A stretch of 31,697 nucleotides of DNA from a virus (IMGVR_UViG_3300010354_000025:1-31697); one strand, 5' to 3'. Positions 3,540 to 31,448 are shown, numbered from the stretch's first letter. Translations and numbers: made by a program. Notes: a model not told the origin generated them from the letters alone.

Positions 3540-4073
3540 TTAAACAGCAGGAGATTGTTGTGTCAATAATGTAGCAATGATAGCAGGATCAACATCTGGA
3601 ACTTCATTGTTTTCCAATCCTGCAAGTACGATAACGTGACCATTACGATCAGATTTCAATACTCCAGAAGTGTACTCAGAAGCATCATTGATTTGTAGAC
3701 CTTCGTCAAGTCCTAAAGCAACGTATGTGCCATCTGCTTTCTCAACCAAACAAACTACCTCATTCTGTCCAAGAAGATGAATCTCAGCACGAAGCTCCTT
3801 TGTATCTGATGCCAAGATCATGTTCAAAGTTTGCTCATACCAAAGAGTACCATTCTCTTTATTGACACGAATAGGTGCTGTATAGGATGACAGATTACTT
3901 TTTAGCTTATACTGAAATACCTCACCTGTAACAGTCAAGGTAGTGACCTCGTTGTTAGTTAGTGTTGGTCCAGTAGCTATTGCCGATAGTGGGAATAAAA
4001 TAACTGACTTGATACCACCTTTACCGTTGGTACAAGTCCTGTCATTATATCCCGTAGTCATCAAACAAGCCAT
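3540..4073 (-). CDS. Tail-tube-like / major structural protein (177 aa)
   Basis: The 177-residue product starts MACLMTTGYNDRTCTNGKGG, has two cysteines near the N-terminus, and then alternates short beta strands (VTTLTVTGEVFQYKL, ELRAEIHLLGQNEVVCLVE), ending in a proline- and valine-rich tail. This pattern resembles the small beta-sandwich tail-tube proteins of Bacteroidota siphophages. The gene is flanked on both sides by strong terminator hairpins, which suggests its level is set apart from its neighbours, as expected for a protein needed in high copy. A capsid decoration protein is the main alternative, since it directly follows the major capsid gene. Confidence 0.55.
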   Translation of the reverse strand: MACLMTTGYNDRTCTNGKGGIKSVILFPLSAIATGPTLTNNEVTTLTVTGEVFQYKLKSNLSSYTAPIRVNKENGTLWYEQTLNMILASDTKELRAEIHLLGQNEVVCLVEKADGTYVALGLDEGLQINDASEYTSGVLKSDRNGHVIVLAGLENNEVPDVDPAIIATLLTQQSPAV

Positions 4074-4096
4074 TGATTTTTTATATTAAATGTTAG

Positions 4097-4120
4097 AAAA
4101 ATGGGAGACCGAAGTCTCCC
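4097..4120 (-). terminator. UUCG tetraloop terminator after the major capsid gene
   Basis: On the minus strand the sequence GGGAGAC-TTCG-GTCTCCC forms a perfect seven-base-pair stem closed by the very stable UUCG-type tetraloop, followed by ATTTTTCT. It lies 12 bases after the capsid stop codon. It may be a partial terminator or a 3' end that protects the abundant capsid message. Confidence 0.85.
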
Positions 4121-4132
4121 GTATTAATTCAA

Positions 4133-5104
4133 TTAGTTAGGAGAACCTGTTCCGTTCCACACACCGATCTGATCCAAGAAAGGTACTTGAACACCAGCTC
4201 TGAATTTAGATCGAACATAGATTACATCGTCATCTTGAGAGTAGAACAAATCGTAGTTATCGAAGTCAGAAGTCAAGTCAGTTCCGAAAACAAAGTGAGA
4301 TGCTTTACCAGTGTAGATGTTATCCAATCCGTTAAGACCAGGAACTTTTACTACTCGCATATCAGTACCAGGTACGATTACCTCATCCATAGTAGCGATA
4401 TCAGATGGAGAATAATGGAAGAAATTATCATCTACCAAGTTTTTCATCAAGAAGTTGAAATTCTCACGACCTGTAAAACAGATGAAGTCAGCAGACTCAG
4501 CAACAGCTTCAGGAGTATTCATGAAACACTCATAGAATACATCGTATGCGTTAGTAGCAGAGATTGAAGCAGTAGAAGAAGTGTTAAGATCAACACATCC
4601 GTTAGCAACAGTCAAGAACTGACGATATCCGTTCATCCATTGCATATTACCTGTACCTGTAACTTTGTTACCTTTCCAAATCAATTTGTCAAGCTCCAAA
4701 GAATGAAGTTGAAGAATGTAGTTAGTGATCTGAGCTTCGAAAGGAAGAGTCTTATCTTCAGCAGATGCGCCTGGTCTAAGAGCTAACTGAGTCCAGAAGC
4801 CATCCAAGTCTTTCTGACAAAAACGCTTCATGTAACCCAACGTCTCAACAGCGATAGCACGATCTGTGAAGACTGTATCTCCTGATGGAGTCATCTCGCA
4901 GTCACCTGCTTGATATACTAATGAATCATCAAGAAGTTTGATCTCTTGCGATCCTTTGATACCTTCTTGGATGGAGATGTAACGAAGTGTTTTAGCTTCA
5001 GTTACCGCACGAGTGATTAGGTCTTCTCTTTGCTCATCTACATAAGCAGCGAGTCCTGATACATCGTAGTCGAATTTTGATTTGATGAATTTTTTAAGTG
5101 ACAT
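4133..5104 (-). CDS. Major capsid protein
   Basis: The 323-residue product has the layout of an HK97-fold capsid protein of Bacteroidota phages: a short basic N-terminal arm (MSLKKFIKSKFDYD), an N-terminal helical part, a long central segment, and a C-terminal strand motif DDVIYVRSKFRAGVQVPF typical of these capsid proteins. It assembles the icosahedral head. It follows a protease gene and a scaffold-like gene, the normal order of head assembly genes, and it is followed by a perfect terminator hairpin. The start at 5104 is one base downstream of the scaffold-like stop. The capsid call rests on motif memory and context. Confidence 0.8.
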   Translation of the reverse strand: MSLKKFIKSKFDYDVSGLAAYVDEQREDLITRAVTEAKTLRYISIQEGIKGSQEIKLLDDSLVYQAGDCEMTPSGDTVFTDRAIAVETLGYMKRFCQKDLDGFWTQLALRPGASAEDKTLPFEAQITNYILQLHSLELDKLIWKGNKVTGTGNMQWMNGYRQFLTVANGCVDLNTSSTASISATNAYDVFYECFMNTPEAVAESADFICFTGRENFNFLMKNLVDDNFFHYSPSDIATMDEVIVPGTDMRVVKVPGLNGLDNIYTGKASHFVFGTDLTSDFDNYDLFYSQDDDVIYVRSKFRAGVQVPFLDQIGVWNGTGSPN

Positions 5105-6466: not shown

Positions 6467-6491
6467 ATATTTTATTATGTATTTTTGTTCT

Positions 6492-7148
6492 ATGAAGTAC
6501 GTTTATCCATATAGAAAAGGCTCTCAGAATTTTGATGTATTACATCATTCAGTCCAATGGCTTAAATGCTTTGATCCCGAAGCTGAAGTTTATATCATAG
6601 GAGACCTTCATCCTGATGGATATTCAATACCAATTCAAACTCTACCAATTCGAGGATGCGATGTTACAAACAAAATACTTCATTTTGCAAGAATTTACTC
6701 AGGTACATTTTGCTATATGAATGATGATTTCTTTATTGGCAAGAACTTCCGCTTTGATAGAATACTTCACAGCAATGAGATGGAGATCAATCCGAAATAT
6801 GCTCCGACATATCAAGAAGCTATGCAGAACACTATTGACTTCTTGAAATCAAATGGGAAGACAACATTTAACTATGAATGTCATCAACCTGTACTTATGG
6901 ATTCTGATAAGCTCCTTGCTCTCTTCGATACTATCACATGGAAACAGCACAATCACTTTATCAAATCAATGTATCTGAATTACTATGGATGCTATCATGT
7001 ACAAGGTGAGAATCTAAAGGTAGCAAATGACATCCGTAAAGCATCTGAATTCATCACTAAATATGGATCATTCAGCACAGGAGATACTTGGTTTAATCAG
7101 AAAGCTCAGCGAGAATTTATTACCAAACGCTTAGCTTATTCTGTGTAG
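6492..7148 (+). CDS. Stealth-like sugar-phosphotransferase / glycosyltransferase
   Basis: This is the only gene on the plus strand. From the ATG at 6492 (MKYVYPYRKG) it encodes 218 residues; an ATG at 6477 would add five. The order of motifs fits Stealth proteins (hexose-1-phosphoryltransferases of capsule synthesis): an N-terminal strand and helix, EVYIIGD, then CYMNDDFFIGK with a paired aspartate as in Stealth region CR2, then YECHQPVLMDSDKL as in CR3. It is shorter than most family members, as are related phage copies. It overlaps the end of the tape-measure gene tail to tail by 29 nt and diverges from the protease gene. It probably alters a surface sugar, of host or virion, and behaves like a moron gene. 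A TATTTTTG box at 6480-6487 lies five bases before the ATG, which could mean leaderless transcription; no -33 box is visible. Confidence 0.65.
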   Translation: MKYVYPYRKGSQNFDVLHHSVQWLKCFDPEAEVYIIGDLHPDGYSIPIQTLPIRGCDVTNKILHFARIYSGTFCYMNDDFFIGKNFRFDRILHSNEMEINPKYAPTYQEAMQNTIDFLKSNGKTTFNYECHQPVLMDSDKLLALFDTITWKQHNHFIKSMYLNYYGCYHVQGENLKVANDIRKASEFITKYGSFSTGDTWFNQKAQREFITKRLAYSV

Positions 7149-14626: not shown

Positions 14627-15358
14627 TCATCCAAAAAAGCGTCTTAACATACGGCTGCCTCGTAATCGTATCGACATCTTTACCCAAGCCTTCTGCCAAG
14701 CGGAGAAGTATCTTTGTCCAAGTGAACCATTCTGAATCTCTGATAGCTCCTTCATCAACTTCCTGTTCGTCTCCATCATCCTCGCTGTCTGTATTCCCAA
14801 TATAGCGAGATTCCGCCTCTTTGATTCGGACAAAAAAAAACTGAAGAAATTCAGGAACTCATCGCCCGGAAAGGATCGCTTGAATATCTCTTCCCTTTTC
14901 TTGTTAGGATTCAGTACCTTTCCTCTTGCATCCTCTTGGCAATATTCCATTCCTTCTTCAATGTAACAGATAGCCAATGCCTCAGCAGGTGACTGAGCTA
15001 AGTCCTCAATCAGCTTCAAGTCAATGATCTGTCCTGTGCTAATGTACTCGAAGTTTTTCTCGAATACATATCTCTTGCCTTCAATGGTCACTATGCCACT
15101 TGGCTCTGTTGTCTTGAAGTTAGCTAACATTTCAAGCAGCTTCTTAGCCAAGTCAAGGATGTCATCAATGTGAGCCTTTCTAACTTGACTCATGCTTAGT
15201 CCTGTGAATATGCTGATAAGCTGACAATGGAAATCAAGCATATTACTCAGCTCTTTATTGTTCTCTTGAATCACAGGAGCTAACATCAGCCACTTAGTCA
15301 ACTGATCTGGGGTGCATTCCTGTATCGTTGTAGGATATCTTGCTTCAATCTTTTTCAT
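14627..15358 (-). CDS. Hypothetical protein, possible tail assembly chaperone (243 aa)
   Basis: I place the start at the ATG at 15358, because it forms an ATGA overlap with the TerL stop; the frame is open further up and a start at 15412 would add 18 residues overlapping TerL. The 243-residue product (MKKIEARYPTTIQE) is helical and contains ISIFTGLSMSQVRKAHIDDI, a pattern found in phage proteins that I associate with tail assembly chaperones, and a conserved-looking AEALAICYIEEGMEYC segment with two cysteines. The C-terminus is strongly basic (RLRGSRMLRRFFG). The chaperone idea is weak because the gene is four genes away from the tape measure. Confidence 0.55.
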   Translation of the reverse strand: MKKIEARYPTTIQECTPDQLTKWLMLAPVIQENNKELSNMLDFHCQLISIFTGLSMSQVRKAHIDDILDLAKKLLEMLANFKTTEPSGIVTIEGKRYVFEKNFEYISTGQIIDLKLIEDLAQSPAEALAICYIEEGMEYCQEDARGKVLNPNKKREEIFKRSFPGDEFLNFFSFFLSESKRRNLAILGIQTARMMETNRKLMKELSEIQNGSLGQRYFSAWQKAWVKMSIRLRGSRMLRRFFG

Positions 15359-16557
15359 GCTCTTAATATCTTGTATTGTCCACGTTTGCTGTAATGCTTC
15401 CTGCAATGCCATGCAAGAGCCAATGAGATCACCCCATCGTCATGCAGTCCTATTGGAGCAGAGTATTGAACTGATCTCGTATTGGGATTGTAAATATATG
15501 TAAAATTCTCAAGCTCATCAATGAGCCATCCTTCATCAAGAATCTTGATCTCCTTCTGTTCAAATGCCAATGCCAAGTCCTCAATGATGACAGGCTTTGT
15601 CTTGGATGTTGTAGTGAATGGATATATCAGATTCCTCATCCTTGTGGATAGCATCTCATGAAAGATATCGCCTTGATTGTTGACCTCTATCAATGTTACA
15701 GCATTGTACTTGCGTATCTGTGCCTCTACCTTGTCAATAATCTTGTTCCATTCGTCATGTCTCCATCTGCCAACATAGACCATCTGACCTGCTTCGTTTA
15801 ATATAGTCAGTACTGTATAGTCATCTGCCCTACCGATGTCAAGACCTGCAAAGTTTTTGCCTTGTGTAGCCCATGTTCCTGTGCATGATCTGATATCTTT
15901 GAATAGTCCTGAAGCATTATCAATAAACTCTGCCATGTACTCCTGTCTAAAGATGTGATCTGGAAGCGATCTCTTTCTTTCGTCCAATTCCTTTGGATTG
16001 ATCATAGGATTGTCGTACGATGTGAAATGGAAGTACGCATACCTGTCATCATAGTTAGGCTGCATACAGATTCTGTGAAAGTGATTCCTGCCTTTTGGAG
16101 TTGATATGAATAGTACCTTCTTTCCTTTAACCAAGACTGTTGCACTCAACACCTCATCCCAAAGCTCAGGTCTTGTAAATGCCATCTCATCCACGATCAT
16201 GTAGTGGAATGTATTCCCTCTGATGTTATCTGGTCTCTCACCCGAGAAGAATTCAATCGTTGATCCAAAGCCACTCACGATAAGATCAGACTTGTTGAAT
16301 TGAAATAGTCCACTATTTGTCACAGCCCTTTCAAGGTCTGCGAATACTTTCTTTCCTTGCTTGTAAACAGGAGTCACCCATGCTATCTTACAACCTGGAT
16401 CATTGATCGCCCAATACAGAAGTTGGTTGATCCCGAGCAATGTCTTGCCAAATTGTCTGCCGATATTTAAAGCATAATACTTTTGAGAGCCTTGATTTAT
16501 GGCTTGATGGATCGCTCTCTGATTGTCATGTGGTTTATATCCTTTGATTGTTGCCAT
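15355..16557 (-). CDS. terL: Terminase large subunit (TerL)
   Basis: The 400-residue product has the full set of large terminase motifs. The ATPase part shows Walker A GRQFGKT (33-39), Walker B YMIVDE (119-124) and the coupling motif STPKG (152-156). The nuclease part shows AGLDIGRADD around Asp240, TLIEVNNQGD around Glu291, and GLHDDGVISLALA around Asp373/374. TerL drives DNA into the prohead through the portal and cuts the concatemer. It is shorter than the common 450-550 residues but nothing essential appears missing. The leader contains a strong hairpin (16570-16585) and lies below a terminator and a candidate promoter. Confidence 0.95.
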   Translation of the reverse strand: MATIKGYKPHDNQRAIHQAINQGSQKYYALNIGRQFGKTLLGINQLLYWAINDPGCKIAWVTPVYKQGKKVFADLERAVTNSGLFQFNKSDLIVSGFGSTIEFFSGERPDNIRGNTFHYMIVDEMAFTRPELWDEVLSATVLVKGKKVLFISTPKGRNHFHRICMQPNYDDRYAYFHFTSYDNPMINPKELDERKRSLPDHIFRQEYMAEFIDNASGLFKDIRSCTGTWATQGKNFAGLDIGRADDYTVLTILNEAGQMVYVGRWRHDEWNKIIDKVEAQIRKYNAVTLIEVNNQGDIFHEMLSTRMRNLIYPFTTTSKTKPVIIEDLALAFEQKEIKILDEGWLIDELENFTYIYNPNTRSVQYSAPIGLHDDGVISLALAWHCRKHYSKRGQYKILRA

Positions 16558-16718: not shown

Positions 16719-17120
16719 TTATTCTTCGAAATCAAACTTTTCTACGTTTCGAGTTTCAAGTTGTTGGCGATCATGCATACCCAAAAAGTTCTTTCCGTAG
16801 AATATTCCTTTACCCTCATTAGCAACGATATGGATTGCAAGTGATTCAAAGTCTTCCTTTATCTTTTTAATTGTGTCCGATAATGGATGACTCTCATCAT
16901 TCAGCGCATTATAAAACTGACTCTTCTGATAGAATTCAAAATCTTGTTTTCTCATCCATATTCTAAGGAAGTGCCTAACATCGGGGATCATTCTTTCTTT
17001 GACTTCTTTAACTCCCGAGTTAGTAGCTATTTCTTTGGTAGCTGATTCACATTCATCAATATATTTCCAAGCTAACTTTCTAAGTTGTTCGATGTCAATT
17101 TGTTTGTATTGATTTGCCAT
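16719..17120 (-). CDS. terS: Terminase small subunit-like protein
   Basis: From the ATG at 17120 (MANQYKQIDIEQ) the product has 133 residues. The frame is open upstream through an ATT repeat that would give a run of nine asparagines, so the downstream start is preferred. The protein is helical: an N-terminal helix pair suggestive of DNA binding (IEQLRKLAWKYIDECE), a central DVRHFLRIWMRKQDFEFY segment, and a charged C-terminal tail ending NVEKFDFEE. Size, charge pattern and place directly before terL support a small terminase, which would recognise the packaging site. No helix-turn-helix can be proved from sequence alone. Confidence 0.7.
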   Translation of the reverse strand: MANQYKQIDIEQLRKLAWKYIDECESATKEIATNSGVKEVKERMIPDVRHFLRIWMRKQDFEFYQKSQFYNALNDESHPLSDTIKKIKEDFESLAIHIVANEGKGIFYGKNFLGMHDRQQLETRNVEKFDFEE

Positions 17121-17150
17121 AACTAATTTTTTAGTTCTTATAGTATATAT

Positions 17151-17177
17151 ATTATTATTATTATTATTATTATTATT
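17151..17177. repeat. ATT trinucleotide microsatellite, nine copies
   Basis: Nine tandem ATT units cover the end of the HAD-like gene, including its stop codon, and the gap before terS. Loss or gain of units would not shift the HAD frame before its stop but would change the distance to the terS start. Such a repeat may vary in length in a population. Confidence 0.95.
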
Positions 17178-17466
17178 TAAATAATACACCTACATTACCT
17201 AATTCTTTTATCACCTCAGGATTATTATCGTAGTGTTTATCTATGTTCAGTTGTTTTATTTTTTCGACTTTGGCTTTGTTTGATCCTGTGGCATATACTC
17301 TGCTCAGTAGGATTCCGACTTGTTCTGCTTTGTCGAGCATTCCTGATCTGCGTGACCTTGCAGAGACGATGTATACCTGATCACCTTTCTCAACGTATCT
17401 TTGTGCCAATTCAGTTCCTTTGGCAGTAGAGATAGTTCCGTCATAGTCAAAAGATATCTTAGCCAT
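17173..17466 (-). CDS. Small HAD-superfamily phosphatase-like protein (97 aa)
   Basis: The start at 17466 (MAKISFDYDGTIS) overlaps the end of the upstream gene by eight bases; a longer frame up to 17562 is an artefact of the overlap. All four HAD motifs are present in this very short protein: DYDGT (nucleophile Asp7, acid Asp9), IVSAR (Ser35), a lysine at about 64-66, and HYDNNP (Asp80). There is no cap domain. HAD enzymes of this type remove phosphate from small molecules or nucleic acid ends. It lies in the same run as sugar-modifying genes, so a sugar phosphate is one possible substrate, but similar mini-HAD genes next to terminase genes occur in other phages without such a cassette. Confidence 0.75.
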   Translation of the reverse strand: MAKISFDYDGTISTAKGTELAQRYVEKGDQVYIVSARSRRSGMLDKAEQVGILLSRVYATGSNKAKVEKIKQLNIDKHYDNNPEVIKELGNVGVLFK

Positions 17467-17911
17467 TGATGAAATCATTGATCTTCGACTTAGCCCATTC
17501 TTTGGCAGCTTTACCTCCCCATAGTAAATATGAGATGTATCCGCAATCTTCTGGAGTACCATTGTCGTAATACACTTCAGCTCTTGACAGGTAGTTGTAC
17601 ATCCGTTTAATCGTTTCTATTGAAATCTTCTCTCTGTTGGCAAGTTGCTGCGCTCTGACCTTTCCTACTTGAGTAGCGCATTTGTTGCCTTGCTTGTCGT
17701 TTAGTTCTATCCCTCGCTTGGCATTGTTAACTACCGCATCAGGATAGTCATTATATGAATCTTGGAACTCTTGCTTGGCACGTTCCCACGATGCCTTGCA
17801 TACAGGATAGCGTTGTGTCGATGGATATTCGTCTTTCATCTTCTCATCACCCATACATCGTTGTATGAATTCGTTTTCGTTTTCTCCCGATCTTGGTTTA
17901 GGTATTGGCAT
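17459..17911 (-). CDS. KCATQVGK-domain protein of unknown function (150 aa)
   Basis: The start is the ATG at 17911 (MPIPKPRSGENENEF), which shares a base with the TGA of the upstream gene; a GTG one codon earlier is also possible. Two modules are visible. Residues 1-47 (PKPRSGENENEFIQRCMGDE ... YPVCKASWE) form a small motif often found at the ends of phage portal and head-protease proteins. Residues 55-145 hold KCATQVGKVRAQQLANRE, TIKRMYNYLSRA and CGYISYLLWGGKAAKEW, a helical domain that I know from prohead-protease fusions and small phage proteins. Here it stands alone, next to the HAD gene and away from the protease. Its role is not known; a head or packaging accessory is possible. Confidence 0.7.
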   Translation of the reverse strand: MPIPKPRSGENENEFIQRCMGDEKMKDEYPSTQRYPVCKASWERAKQEFQDSYNDYPDAVVNNAKRGIELNDKQGNKCATQVGKVRAQQLANREKISIETIKRMYNYLSRAEVYYDNGTPEDCGYISYLLWGGKAAKEWAKSKINDFING

Positions 17912-18978
17912 CACTTACAATATTTAACGTAAAAAGTATAAGGTACTACATTCATCTTGGCAAGTATCCATATCAGAGCTCTGTATCTCTTGAATGAATA
18001 CTTAGCGTATTTTGATCTGTCATTCTTTCTGATATTGACAAGAGACATAGTCTTGTTTTCTATATCTCCGAGTTTAGATAGATCGAATTCTGACTTGACA
18101 TCGAATATCTTTCTTGCTTGTTTCTTGGTCAGCTTTCCTGATCTCACTTGAGCAGATAGATAAACGATACGTTTGTCGATGCCAAACTTAGTAGGTAATA
18201 GCCATGAGCCAACGAATTCTGTATAGACATTCTCACAATGCTTACCCCCATAATCTTGCCACTTGATGAGCTTCTTCATCTCTTGCTCCATAGTCTCTCT
18301 GTCGAATCCGTAATGGAATGGTCTGATGTTCTTGATGCCTTTGAAAGCGTAGTATATCTGATCCCAGAATGTGAATAGAGGATAGTTCTTCAGCTCTTTG
18401 CCTGTGTAATCTTTATAGACCGATTGAATGTATTTAGCATCCATATAAGTCCATCCTTTTGGAGTTGATCCTTCAGTACGGAAGTCATGACCATTGAGAA
18501 TATATTTGATGCCATACTGATGAGCAGTATCGTACATGAGTTTGGTCATAGCGATGTCATTCGGGATATCGGCATCAGGAACTCCTGCGTACAGGAATGA
18601 TTCATTGAGCTTATCATACTCCTGCTTGTTCACTCGATATATGATCGCATCTACTCCAAGAGTATTGATAAGTCCATTCATATTGTGAACAGCTTCTGGA
18701 GCATTCCAGTTGTTATCGAAATGGATGACTAATGGCTTCAATCCCCAATATCTCACAGCAGTATAGAGTAGTGTTGAGCTGTCAAGACCTCCACTGATCC
18801 CCATGATGCAGTCATACTTGCTATGAGTACCTGCTTTGCGAATCTTATGCAGCACAGAGTTAAGATCGAATGGTACTGCTTTAGCTTGTAGCTCATCATG
18901 TAGATCGCAGTATTCACATTGCTTCTCTGATATCTTAGCTATGTCCTCTGTAAAGAGACATCTTGGACATTCTTTCAT
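17911..18978 (-). CDS. N-acetyl sugar amidotransferase (WbpG/WbuX-type)
   Basis: The 355-residue product is a full-length member of the PP-loop ATPase family that amidates N-acetyl sugars of O-antigen and capsule. It has zinc-type cysteines at the N-terminus (C4, C7, C21, C24), the PP loop SGGLDSS (62-68), PDADIPNDIA (134-143), NGHDFRTEG (162-170), GWTYMDAKYI (175-184) and the diagnostic C-terminal run FGIDKRIVYLSAQVRSGKL. In bacteria it acts with a HisH/HisF-like glutaminase that supplies ammonia; no such partner is in this genome, so the host's would be needed. Start and stop overlap both neighbours by a few bases (ATGA with the methyltransferase). Such a gene in a small phage points to transfer from a host polysaccharide locus. 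Confidence 0.88.
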   Translation of the reverse strand: MKECPRCLFTEDIAKISEKQCEYCDLHDELQAKAVPFDLNSVLHKIRKAGTHSKYDCIMGISGGLDSSTLLYTAVRYWGLKPLVIHFDNNWNAPEAVHNMNGLINTLGVDAIIYRVNKQEYDKLNESFLYAGVPDADIPNDIAMTKLMYDTAHQYGIKYILNGHDFRTEGSTPKGWTYMDAKYIQSVYKDYTGKELKNYPLFTFWDQIYYAFKGIKNIRPFHYGFDRETMEQEMKKLIKWQDYGGKHCENVYTEFVGSWLLPTKFGIDKRIVYLSAQVRSGKLTKKQARKIFDVKSEFDLSKLGDIENKTMSLVNIRKNDRSKYAKYSFKRYRALIWILAKMNVVPYTFYVKYCK

Positions 18979-19514
18979 GATAGAATAATTTGAAAATAAT
19001 ACTCATTTGTTTGTATCCTTTGGATGTCATACTGTATGAAGTCCTCAGGTCTTATGTTACACCATATATGCTCAGGATCGCAATCCTCTGGCTCATCTAA
19101 TGGCATAGACAGCACAAGGTATTTACAATGCTTTAAGCATCTGTCAATCACATCGAATGGATTCTCCAAATGCTCTAATGTCTCAGCGATGATGATCACA
19201 TCATAGTCATCTGTTGGATCATCTGTACGAATGTCGAGAAGTTTGATATGATCTGCCTTAGATACTGCTTTGTTCAGAGCTATGATAGAGAAGTCTGAAG
19301 CTGTGTACTCGCAATCGAATTTCATCTTGAGATACTCAGCTCCTACACCTGTGCCACATCCGATCTCAAGGATAGTTTTGAATTCAATGTGCTTGAGTAT
19401 GTCTGCGAGTTGTTCATAGATTATGAGCCTGTCATATTCTATGCCCACACAATCGTAGTAGTTATCCCAAAAGTAAACGCTGTTGGTATTTGGTTTATCT
19501 GTTATCCTTCGCAT
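18975..19514 (-). CDS. Class I SAM-dependent methyltransferase (179 aa)
   Basis: The product has motif I ILEIGCGTGVG (48-58), an acidic residue after strand two (TASDFS, Asp74), DIRTDDP near 94-100 and the motif IV-like YDVIIIAETLEHL (104-116), followed by LVLSMPLDEP. This is the fold of small-molecule or sugar methyltransferases of the type found in polysaccharide loci (Methyltransf_11/23). The substrate cannot be read from sequence. It overlaps the glycosyltransferase by 13 nt and the amidotransferase by 4 nt, so the three should be made together. A DNA methyltransferase is unlikely since no NPPY/DPPY or PC motif is present. Confidence 0.8.
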   Translation of the reverse strand: MRRITDKPNTNSVYFWDNYYDCVGIEYDRLIIYEQLADILKHIEFKTILEIGCGTGVGAEYLKMKFDCEYTASDFSIIALNKAVSKADHIKLLDIRTDDPTDDYDVIIIAETLEHLENPFDVIDRCLKHCKYLVLSMPLDEPEDCDPEHIWCNIRPEDFIQYDIQRIQTNEYYFQIILS

Positions 19515-20230
19515 ATCTCTTGTTGTAAAGTATATATTTCGGGGAATGACTTGAAGAAATCATCCTCTGCTTTGTTTCCGAGTTTCTCTGATTGACCTCT
19601 CAATGATCCTGACCAATGATCTGCAAACTTATGCTTGTTATCCCATACATGAGTTGAGATGCTCAGTAGCTTTAGTTCAGGATCATCAAAGATTCCTATC
19701 TGTGCATCCATAGCTAATAACTTGAGCCACATGGACCAATCGAGTCCTGAGTTGAGTCTCTTGTCAAATGGCTGCCAATTCATCTTATTTAATGCTCTTG
19801 ATGACAATACTCTTCCAATACCTATTGGCTCGTATGATCGTTGTCCTTTGCCGTATCCGAACCAATTGACAGTTCTGATGTTGGTCTTTCCTATATCTGT
19901 GAAGTGACATCCGAGCTTTCCTACCATATCGTATTGTGATAGCATATTCTCTGCCTCTTGGATGTAGTTATCAGACACCCAATCGGATGACCCAACGAAT
20001 AGCACTCCATCAGGATTGTATTTCTTTGCTGCCATGAATCCTGCATTCCATTTAGTACCTAATGGATCGTTGGATATTGTTACCCATTCCACACCAAGTG
20101 ATTTTGCTATCTGCTCATCTCCTTTATCATGCCCCATACAGATGACAGTAACACCTGCATTCTGAAGCCTTGTGATAGTATGCTTCAATAATGGTCTACG
20201 ACCATATACAGGAATGGGAGCTACAATCAT
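19502..20230 (-). CDS. GT2-like glycosyltransferase (242 aa)
   Basis: The protein begins MIVAPIPVYGRRPLLKHTI, the first strand and helix of a GT-A fold family 2 glycosyltransferase. Further signs are the nucleotide-side segment GTKWNAGFMAAKK (58-70), the metal-binding region VLFVGSSDWVSD (76-87) in the place of the DxD motif, and RLNSGLDWSMWLKLL with an acidic residue that could be the base. No membrane segment is present, so it would act in the cytoplasm on an activated sugar. The canonical DxD is not exact, so the donor is uncertain. First gene of the overlapping sugar cassette; it overlaps the SAP-like gene by four bases (ATGA). Confidence 0.72.
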   Translation of the reverse strand: MIVAPIPVYGRRPLLKHTITRLQNAGVTVICMGHDKGDEQIAKSLGVEWVTISNDPLGTKWNAGFMAAKKYNPDGVLFVGSSDWVSDNYIQEAENMLSQYDMVGKLGCHFTDIGKTNIRTVNWFGYGKGQRSYEPIGIGRVLSSRALNKMNWQPFDKRLNSGLDWSMWLKLLAMDAQIGIFDDPELKLLSISTHVWDNKHKFADHWSGSLRGQSEKLGNKAEDDFFKSFPEIYTLQQEICEG

Positions 20231-20580
20231 GATTCGAGAGCTTTTATAAGATCTACTTTCTTAGGTGCTTGTCCCATGTCAAGTCCTCTCTCTTGAGCCA
20301 ATGCCTTAAGATCATTGTATTTCATCTCTTGGTAGTTATATTGCTTAACTCCTATGAACTGAATCTTAGCAGGTTTCACCTCTCTATTTCTTTCTTCTTG
20401 CATATATCTGAGAAGATCATTCATAGCATTTCGAATACAAGTACCGCATTTTTTATTCAGCTCAACACCTTTCTGAATGCGATACCATATTGCTAAATCT
20501 TCTTTCAGATTCTCATTCAGAGCAAACGATCTGCTCTTCTGAAATCGCATGGCTTGTATTTCTAATCCTTCTGATATCAT
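20227..20580 (-). CDS. Phage protein with CxxC motif and SAP/HeH-like C-terminus
   Basis: The 117-residue product contains KKCGTCIRNAMNDLLRYM (two cysteines, residues about 44-61), a basic linker, and a C-terminal EMKYNDLKALAQERGLDM followed by KKVDLIKALES, which has the helix-extended loop-helix pattern of SAP/HeH DNA-binding modules. Similar proteins are found in Flavobacteria phages near terminase genes. A role in DNA binding is likely from the SAP-like end. The start overlaps the stop of the 56-residue gene upstream as ATGA, and its own stop overlaps the glycosyltransferase start in the same way. Confidence 0.65.
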   Translation of the reverse strand: MISEGLEIQAMRFQKSRSFALNENLKEDLAIWYRIQKGVELNKKCGTCIRNAMNDLLRYMQEERNREVKPAKIQFIGVKQYNYQEMKYNDLKALAQERGLDMGQAPKKVDLIKALES

Positions 20581-27167: not shown

Positions 27168-27836
27168 TTATAAGTAATCAAAAATTGATATTTGTTTTTC
27201 GTCTTGTTTTTTAATTATTCCTAATGCGGTTTCAAGTATTGTTTTACCTATTTCATAATCTACGAGGTTACGAGCAATTTTAGCAAGTGGTTGAGAACCT
27301 TTATACTTTCTAAAATCATAATCGTGAAATTCAGAAAGCCTATTAACCTCATCATTTCCTTGACATACTCCAGCTTTTCTTGTTTCAATATTAGTATTAA
27401 TTATAAAATTAGTCCAATATAAATGCCTATCTATTTCAATACCATTTATTAATGGCTCATAGTATGGTATTACATTCTCAACCACATATTTTCCGTCAAA
27501 ATGATGCTTTAAAAAAATAATTTCTTCATATAAAGATAAATCAGGAAAAATAGGACTTTTCCCATTTCTACCGTGTCCCCAAAATCTTGCACGGCTATGG
27601 CTTGGACAAGGTGGGCTACTCCATATAAAATCGAAATCTTTATAATGATCAAGTAAGAATTGGTGAGCATCCGTAACTATTACGTTATCATTTGGAAATC
27701 TTTCCTGGTATAATCTTGCAAGTTCTTCATCCAATTCCACGGCAGTTACTTCTATTTGTATACCTGCTTCTTCAGCAACCTCATCCCATTTGTATCGATT
27801 GCCTCCTAAACAAGAATATAAATTTAATATCTTCAT
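27168..27836 (-). CDS. Compact DNA cytosine-5 methyltransferase
   Basis: The 222-residue product has motif I-like LNLYSCLGGNRYKW (4-17), an acidic VELDEELA for SAM, the catalytic SPPCPSHSRARFW (cysteine in the PC motif), YVVENVIPYYEP with the ENV motif, and a C-terminal motif X-like QPLAKIARNLVDY. The usual QxRxR motif is replaced by DRHLYWTN, and there is no room for a large target recognition domain, so it is shorter than the normal 300-400 residues. It may protect phage DNA from host restriction or methylate a short site. It lies next to the DnaA-like gene and could also mark the origin. Confidence 0.78.
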   Translation of the reverse strand: MKILNLYSCLGGNRYKWDEVAEEAGIQIEVTAVELDEELARLYQERFPNDNVIVTDAHQFLLDHYKDFDFIWSSPPCPSHSRARFWGHGRNGKSPIFPDLSLYEEIIFLKHHFDGKYVVENVIPYYEPLINGIEIDRHLYWTNFIINTNIETRKAGVCQGNDEVNRLSEFHDYDFRKYKGSQPLAKIARNLVDYEIGKTILETALGIIKKQDEKQISIFDYL

Positions 27837-30449: not shown

Positions 30450-31448
30450 TCAGTATATTTTATTCAAGATAAAGATATCTGAGTATATACTATTCAATGC
30501 ACTATTCGAACTGAATTGCCCTGTGATATTAAGAGTATTTGATATAGTAGTATCGAATGTAGTATTATTGATAACATTCCAAGCAAAGCCTTCTTGAGTA
30601 CCTGAGGCCGCTTTTAAGATGTGAAACTGAGCCACGCTTACAATAGATGCCACACCTGCTGCTCCAATAGCTCTGATAGTAAACTGAGCTGTAAGATACC
30701 ATACTTGATTATTGATTACAGGCAAAGTCAATGCTCCTGAAGAAGCCAATACAACAGAACCTGTTTTTAATCTAATAGTAATAGTATCGTTATTCTTAGC
30801 AGACATAACTCCACCCATACTGACCTGAAATGAATCACCTACTGTGAAGCCATTTGCAGGAACAGATAAAGTACCTACACCGCCATCTATCAAAGTAGCT
30901 TCTGCCGTTGATGCTGTTAGCGTTGGACTGTTAGCAGTCTGAGCGAATAATCCGTATGTAGTTACTGTTGGTATTGTAGGCTTATTCTTGATATAATCAG
31001 AAGCAGCATTATCGTTTTGATTCCAATCAGATTGAAATTGATCTGTAACCTGTATCCATTGAGCAGCACCAGCAGTATTATCTATACATTTGTATGATCT
31101 ATTGTTATTGAGATTCTTATAATAGCTTCCTACTATATATCCCTTATCAACATCATAAGTAGCATCAGGATTGCTACCATTGATACTATTAGCGTAGACT
31201 ATCCTACCTGCTTGATTGATGTAATACTGTATACCTGCCTCCCACTCATCCTGATAACCTACTGCACATTCTCTCGCAATACCTCCTCCTTGACCATTAT
31301 CAATGAAGCCTTTTTTTAATGCTGCAAGATTGTCAAGTACAATAGCCGAATCACTTAATCTAATATTATTAGTGGTATCATTACCAATATCCGTTACCTC
31401 TTGAAGATTTGGAGTACTTGTCGTTATGTTTATATCAGTTATTGCCAT
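30450..31448 (-). CDS. Fibre / receptor-binding-like protein (332 aa)
   Basis: The 332-residue product starts MAITDINITTSTPNLQEVTD and has NIRLSDSAIVL, a linker with QSDWNQNDNAASDYIKNKP found in many phage fibre and appendage proteins, and a C-terminal part (from about residue 170) rich in Ser, Thr, Gly and beta strands that resembles a jelly-roll head-binding or receptor-binding domain. It lies between the connector-like gene and the lysis genes. A host-binding or virion-surface role is inferred from this layout. Confidence 0.7.
   Translation of the reverse strand: MAITDINITTSTPNLQEVTDIGNDTTNNIRLSDSAIVLDNLAALKKGFIDNGQGGGIARECAVGYQDEWEAGIQYYINQAGRIVYANSINGSNPDATYDVDKGYIVGSYYKNLNNNRSYKCIDNTAGAAQWIQVTDQFQSDWNQNDNAASDYIKNKPTIPTVTTYGLFAQTANSPTLTASTAEATLIDGGVGTLSVPANGFTVGDSFQVSMGGVMSAKNNDTITIRLKTGSVVLASSGALTLPVINNQVWYLTAQFTIRAIGAAGVASIVSVAQFHILKAASGTQEGFAWNVINNTTFDTTISNTLNITGQFSSNSALNSIYSDIFILNKIY

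Follow-up and report, generated by a model that had tools for sequence, protein, structure and literature searches.

A phage locus pairing a glycosyltransferase with a divergent N-acetyl-sugar amidotransferase homologue suggests a variable sugar tag

Introduction

Why would a small phage carry an amidotransferase of a type that belongs to O-antigen loci? This question is raised by the viral sequence IMGVR_UViG_3300010354_000025, a stretch of 31,697 nucleotides that was analysed over its whole length and is here called the window. An earlier note on this DNA had proposed that five overlapping genes, encoding a GT2-like glycosyltransferase (GT), an S-adenosylmethionine (SAM)-dependent methyltransferase, a WbpG/WbuX-type N-acetyl-sugar amidotransferase (AMT), a KCATQVGK-domain protein (KCAT) and a mini HAD-like protein (HAD), form one cassette for sugar modification. 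The open reading frames (ORFs), their overlaps and the identity of AMT held up on analysis, but the five-gene extent did not; the conserved unit is GT, an exchangeable gene and AMT. Together, the results suggest that phages of this group make a sugar tag of their own, variable and positively charged, and place it either on the virion or on the surface of the host.

Results

GT and AMT occur together around an exchangeable gene

Relatives were collected from IMG/VR using an AMT search and three terminase queries that are independent of AMT; all belong to a single phage group and share their gene order. Each distinct complete interval from the SAP-domain gene to the terminase gene was counted once (n = 113). 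GT and AMT were both present in 85 of the 113 intervals, neither was present in 28, and none contained only one of them. Use of AMT as a query biases the 85:28 ratio but not the zero count of single-gene cases, and the terminase-based searches, which were able to detect GT-only or AMT-only genomes, detected none. This arrangement is far from chance. The earlier note had made its cassette depend on the co-occurrence of these two genes in relatives, and the counts bear this out.

The gene between GT and AMT varies. In the 85 intervals with GT and AMT, this middle slot was occupied by a protein of type c (44), a methyltransferase as in the window (20), or a protein of type a (8), type b (4) or type d (2), and nothing was recognised in the remaining 7. 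The same place in the 28 cassette-less intervals was empty (19) or contained one GT2 protein (4) or a 293-residue protein together with a GT2 protein (5); GT2 proteins with Pfam E values of 5e-5 and 1.4e-9 occur there in L141/L158/L164 and in L161, respectively. Type d proteins gave weak GT4-like matches in the C-terminal part. Types a to c were also considered as GT-B enzymes, a candidate rejected for lack of family, PDB or profile support.

The other two genes of the proposed cassette behave differently. KCAT was found in 30 of the 85 AMT-bearing intervals and in 0 of the 28 others, and HAD was found in 11 of the 85 as well as in 4 of the 28 without AMT (L146, L151, L159 and L160). KCAT and HAD are thus independent passengers outside the sugar unit. 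In one relative, an ORF judged by eye to be ParB-like and DNA methyltransferase-like (383 aa, L093:6396-7547) lies between the KCAT gene and the terminase gene.

On a terminase tree of 61 genomes, slot content changed at least 25 times, whole-locus replacements included, although this is a quick tree and the number may be too high if the terminase has recombined. L018 and L112 differ in their middle genes even though their terminase proteins are identical. AMT itself is under purifying selection, with a median ratio of non-synonymous to synonymous substitution rates (dN/dS) of 0.072 compared to 0.077 for the terminase; the medians were 0.18 for GT, 0.155 for the methyltransferase and 0.15 for the type c middle protein. 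AMT is therefore under constraint as strict as that on the terminase, in surroundings that are being shuffled.

AMT is a divergent homologue of sugar amidotransferases

The best family match of AMT was TIGR03573 (WbuX/WbpG) with 172.2 bits and an E value of 1.9e-50, residues 1-293 being aligned to positions 1-314 of the 344 in the model. Each of the 17 phage AMTs tested matched this model best. The PP-loop SGGxDS (S62, G63, G64, D66 and S67) and the cysteines C4, C7, C21 and C24, which make two CxxC pairs, are invariant in these 17 phage sequences and in the nearest cellular homologue found. The same PP-loop and tetracysteine features are the signature of the family, whose solved member is LpNASAT; the description of the family places zinc at the cysteines and proposes a reaction that turns ATP into AMP (PMC10607449). 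In the tetracysteine signature CXXC-Xn-[GN]XCXXC, the window has K where [GN] is expected (EKQCEYC), and both CxxC pairs are kept. By comparison, the match to QueC reached 14.6 bits against a cut-off of 22 (E 0.023) and that to TilS 18.3 bits against a cut-off of 93.6 (E 0.0017). The assignment to the WbpG/WbuX type thus stands at family level, and the PP-loop protein does not group with tRNA- or queuosine-type enzymes, the grouping that the earlier note had named as fatal to its idea. A PDB sequence search with the AMT profile gave marginal matches only, including LpNASAT (8wex, E 0.13).

The phage AMTs form a single phage-only clade beside Bacteroidota enzymes (Shimodaira-Hasegawa-like approximate likelihood-ratio test 100, with long branches present), and no AMT homologue was found in 50,697 phage records. 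The closest cellular relative found, in a Bacteroidia metagenome-assembled genome (L082), has 36-38% identity and passes the curated cut-off with 285.8 bits; the polysaccharide locus in which it is located also contains genes for HisH, HisF, a flippase-like protein and glycosyltransferases. HisH and HisF were present within ~1.5 kb of at least 19 of 30 Bacteroidota AMT homologue loci, and TIGR03573 members above the cut-off were present in 45 of 297 Bacteroidota genomes. No HisH/HisF-like protein was found in the window or in 20 relatives, in agreement with the missing glutaminase of the earlier note. Its further statement that host help is needed is inferred, and free ammonia could also serve.

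GT has a GT-A fold

The AlphaFold2 (AF2) model of GT is a confident GT-A fold with a predicted local distance difference test score (pLDDT) of 92.7. Foldseek searches with this model against the PDB gave glycosyltransferases as the best matches (AvpGT, E 2.7e-9, TMq 0.63), and those against viral structures gave a phage GTA-type protein (55% identity, E 1.7e-34). Pfam Glycos_transf_2 (GT2) did not match GT, so its identity as a glycosyltransferase rests on structure and the more specific GT2 label of the earlier note was not recovered. The candidate for a DxD-type motif is an invariant GSSDW with one acidic residue only. GT homologues were not found in the 50,697 phage records, and searches with the GT, AMT, capsid and Stealth-like proteins gave no relatives among named phages. 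The methyltransferase assignment was confirmed by Pfam (Table 1).

Layout of the locus

The phage genome is a closed circle of ~31.57 kb with a 123-bp terminal repeat and 37.7% GC. No tRNA genes were found in it, and the minus strand carries nearly all genes. The five ORFs overlap by 13 nt at the GT/methyltransferase joint (19514/19502), by 4 nt at the methyltransferase/AMT joint (18978/18975) and by 4 nt at the AMT/KCAT joint (17914/17911). The KCAT/HAD overlap is 8 nt from an inner ATG (17466, MAKISFDYDG) or 104 nt from an outer ATG. On the upstream side, GT shares 4 nt with the SAP-domain gene, which makes the overlapping run longer than five genes. The SAP-domain gene is kept in relatives with filled and with empty slots, and almost every relative has the downstream border gene next to the terminase. 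A run of ATT repeats (17121-17180) lies in the gap that separates the HAD gene from the one that follows.

Unrelated middle-slot proteins in L016, L017 and the window share their first residues (MRRI/MRRV), because the start of the middle gene overlaps the end of GT. Exchange of the middle gene seems to keep the GT joint.

Table 1. Features of the window from the SAP-domain gene to the large terminase
Feature	Coordinates	Strand	Role or position	Basis
SAP-domain gene	20227..20580	-	fixed upstream border, outside the sugar unit	weak Pfam SAP match, E 0.0079
GT, GT-A-fold glycosyltransferase	19502..20230	-	invariant first enzyme of the locus	AF2 and Foldseek; co-occurrence with AMT
Class I SAM-dependent methyltransferase	18975..19514	-	exchangeable middle slot	Pfam Methyltransf_23, 48.9 bits
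AMT, N-acetyl-sugar amidotransferase homologue	17911..18978	-	PP-loop ATPase with tetracysteine	TIGR03573
KCATQVGK-domain protein	17459..17914	-	optional passenger, function unknown	phrog_2859, E 1.7e-11
Mini HAD-like protein	17173..17466 (inner start)	-	optional passenger	phrog_8630 nucleotidase, E 2.6e-4
Downstream border gene	16719..17120 (inner ATG as start)	-	fixed border just before the large terminase, position of small terminase	no family match
Large terminase	15355..16557	-	marker for the relatives' tree	tblastn matches to 1660 phage records

A fibre-tip domain and other genes outside the locus

A fibre-like protein (30450-31448, minus strand) has a tip domain, formed by its C-terminal 180 residues. 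Among 29 near-complete genomes, 17 of the 19 with AMT have this domain, and none of the 10 without AMT does. The tip contains 23% Ser+Thr. On the core tree, this link comes down to two independent contrasts (sign test p 0.5) and is therefore kept as a lead only. The cassette could act on the host surface that the fibre meets, or the fibre tip itself could be the acceptor. Fibre-tip type as a partner of the middle-slot gene was rejected (partial Mantel r -0.12, p 0.94). Two small proteins (L230:2989-3468 and 3990-4454, with their homologues), lysis lipoprotein-like and holin-like by inspection, showed the opposite distribution, being present in 10 of 10 AMT-lacking and 0 of 19 AMT-bearing genomes.

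A Shine-Dalgarno-like motif was found at 1 of 30 start codons compared to 14% at random positions. Such scarcity fits a Bacteroidota host without proving it, and the host is probably a member of this phylum. A scan of genome contigs for a host genome carrying the phage gave only the homologue in the Bacteroidia polysaccharide locus, with no prophage or isolate found.

The lone plus-strand gene at 6477-7148, between the head protease and tape-measure genes, encodes a protein with a YMNDDFF motif. It is conserved in nearly all relatives, matches phrog_7999 (E 5e-12) and was Stealth_CR2-like in 9 of 19 relatives/members (best E 0.0023). With this weak Pfam support, it is a distant possible member of the Stealth-type sugar-phosphate transferases that is carried by most of these phages. 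Of 22 genomes, only the empty-slot genomes L146 and L151 lack the gene, and it was considered as part of the cassette; it is retained, however, in another clade with an empty slot (L381, L382, L386, L392 and others), and the strict link was therefore rejected. At 27168-27836 (minus strand), a short protein of 222 aa resembles C5-cytosine methyltransferases; its Pfam match covers the first quarter of the model only, and it was not found in the 20 relatives compared.

Discussion

The genes lying between the SAP-domain gene and the terminase genes may form an exchangeable glycosylation locus that converts an N-acetyl sugar to a cationic acetamidino sugar, the acceptor most likely being a virion protein. 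We hold this reading tentatively, at a little under an even chance. We infer its substrate, product, order of steps and acceptor as follows. GT would transfer an N-acetylated sugar, with a nucleotide sugar of the host as donor. AMT would then activate the N-acetyl carbonyl with ATP, and ammonia, either free or from a host glutaminase, would replace the oxygen to give an acetamidino group with a positive charge and a predicted mass change of about -0.98 Da. The middle-slot enzyme, here the methyltransferase and elsewhere other proteins, would cap or extend the product, and with differing middle enzymes close relatives would make different glycan types. The virion protein would be modified in the cytoplasm during late expression. 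The fuller claim, that lytic phages use a compact swappable locus to put acetamidino sugar on their own virions and that a swap of the middle gene switches the glycan type among near-identical phages, is possible, and we put it lower.

A virion protein is slightly favoured over a host surface glycan as the acceptor. The cassette is co-directional with the terminase and structural genes and lies just upstream of them, none of its proteins has a stretch resembling a membrane segment (maximum KD19 1.55 or less), and no integrase turned up in Pfam scans of the proteins. This head-to-tail arrangement, together with the lack of a membrane part and of an integrase in the scans, is the reason for the preference. 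Capsid glycosylation in mycobacteriophages (PMC11256854) is a precedent for a virion acceptor.

Several results weigh against the glycosylation proposal or its virion acceptor. AMT scores below the curated cut-off of TIGR03573 (172.2 against 203.2 bits), and is therefore termed a divergent homologue here rather than filed as a member. Its AF2 model is poor (pLDDT 47.5), leaving the fold unconfirmed by the model, which was not used for a fold search. The commonest middle-slot proteins, types a, b and c, match no family. Late expression is read from gene order only. Finally, the cellular kin of AMT make surface polysaccharide, and a host-surface acceptor fits this equally well.

The same enzymology may indeed be directed at a host surface polysaccharide, a possibility that we take seriously but doubt. 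A lipid-linked O-unit would be modified on the cytoplasmic face and exported by a host flippase, and the altered receptor would block superinfection or stop progeny sticking to debris. The polysaccharide loci that house the cellular AMT relatives are consistent with such a target, as is the swapping of the fibre tip and lysis-type genes with the cassette, which suggests that a surface-related module changes alongside it. Acetamidino groups are recognition features for the Campylobacter phage protein Gp047 (PMC4690887), and wbpG is among the genes required for tailocin killing in Pseudomonas (PMC8319346). The locus, however, has no flippase, membrane glycosyltransferase or ligase, the phage shows no sign of lysogeny, and the fibre link amounts to two independent contrasts and does not extend to the middle-slot type.

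It is unlikely that the locus yields a small diffusible or cofactor-like sugar metabolite instead of a decoration. The lack of a known acceptor and of an assigned family for types a to c is in favour of a metabolite, but GT2-type glycosyltransferases occupy the same slot in relatives and the amidotransferase family works on glycan sugars (PMC10607449).

Glycosylation or hypermodification of the phage DNA against restriction is very improbable. Close relatives refill the slot with glycan-type glycosyltransferases or leave it empty, AMT groups with WbuX rather than QueC, and no base-hydroxymethylating or thymidylate-synthase-like gene was found among the window proteins scanned. Some DNA-modifying phages do carry glycosyltransferases, and the empty-slot relative L386 has an ORF that looks thymidylate-synthase-like by eye (L386:650-1429). 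Of the three purposes offered by the earlier note, DNA modification is therefore unlikely and the virion and host surface both stand. A role of the PP-loop protein in tRNA or cofactor modification (QueC, TilS, LarE or NadE type), with unrelated neighbours, can be all but dismissed. Weak matches of its PP-loop part to NadE, LarE, TilS and QueC speak for such a role, but the match to WbuX, over residues 1-293, is stronger by tens of orders of magnitude, the tetracysteine is conserved and co-occurrence with GT is strict.

AMT shares with the TIGR03573 enzymes WbpG, WbuX and LpNASAT the SGGxDS PP-loop, two zinc-type CxxC pairs, a length of ~350 residues and linkage to a glycosyltransferase. It differs from them in its lower score, its separate phage clade, the replaced [GN] residue, the lack of a HisH/HisF partner and a setting outside an O-antigen locus. 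As in mycobacteriophages Che8 and Rita, in the account cited in PMC11256854, the glycosyltransferase is encoded by a tailed phage and a virion acceptor is proposed. Compared with what that account gives for Che8 and Rita, the present phage looks lytic and probably infects Bacteroidota, its locus includes an amidotransferase, relatives exchange the set as a cassette, and glycosylation of the virion is a proposal. The GtrABC loci of seroconverting prophages likewise encode glycosyltransferases, which differ from one relative to another while their site in the genome stays the same. Unlike these loci, the phage locus has no GtrA-like flippase or membrane glycosyltransferase, and no lysogeny genes were seen.

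Phage-encoded glycosylation loci are already known; an amidotransferase in one is new to the 50,697 phage records searched, and the literature searched gave no phage example of an N-acetyl-sugar amidotransferase. The natural relatives with a full cassette, with other glycosyltransferases or with an empty slot are ready comparisons for the function of a phage-made glycan. If the acceptor is the virion, virion glycosylation would extend beyond mycobacteriophages and to a charged sugar.

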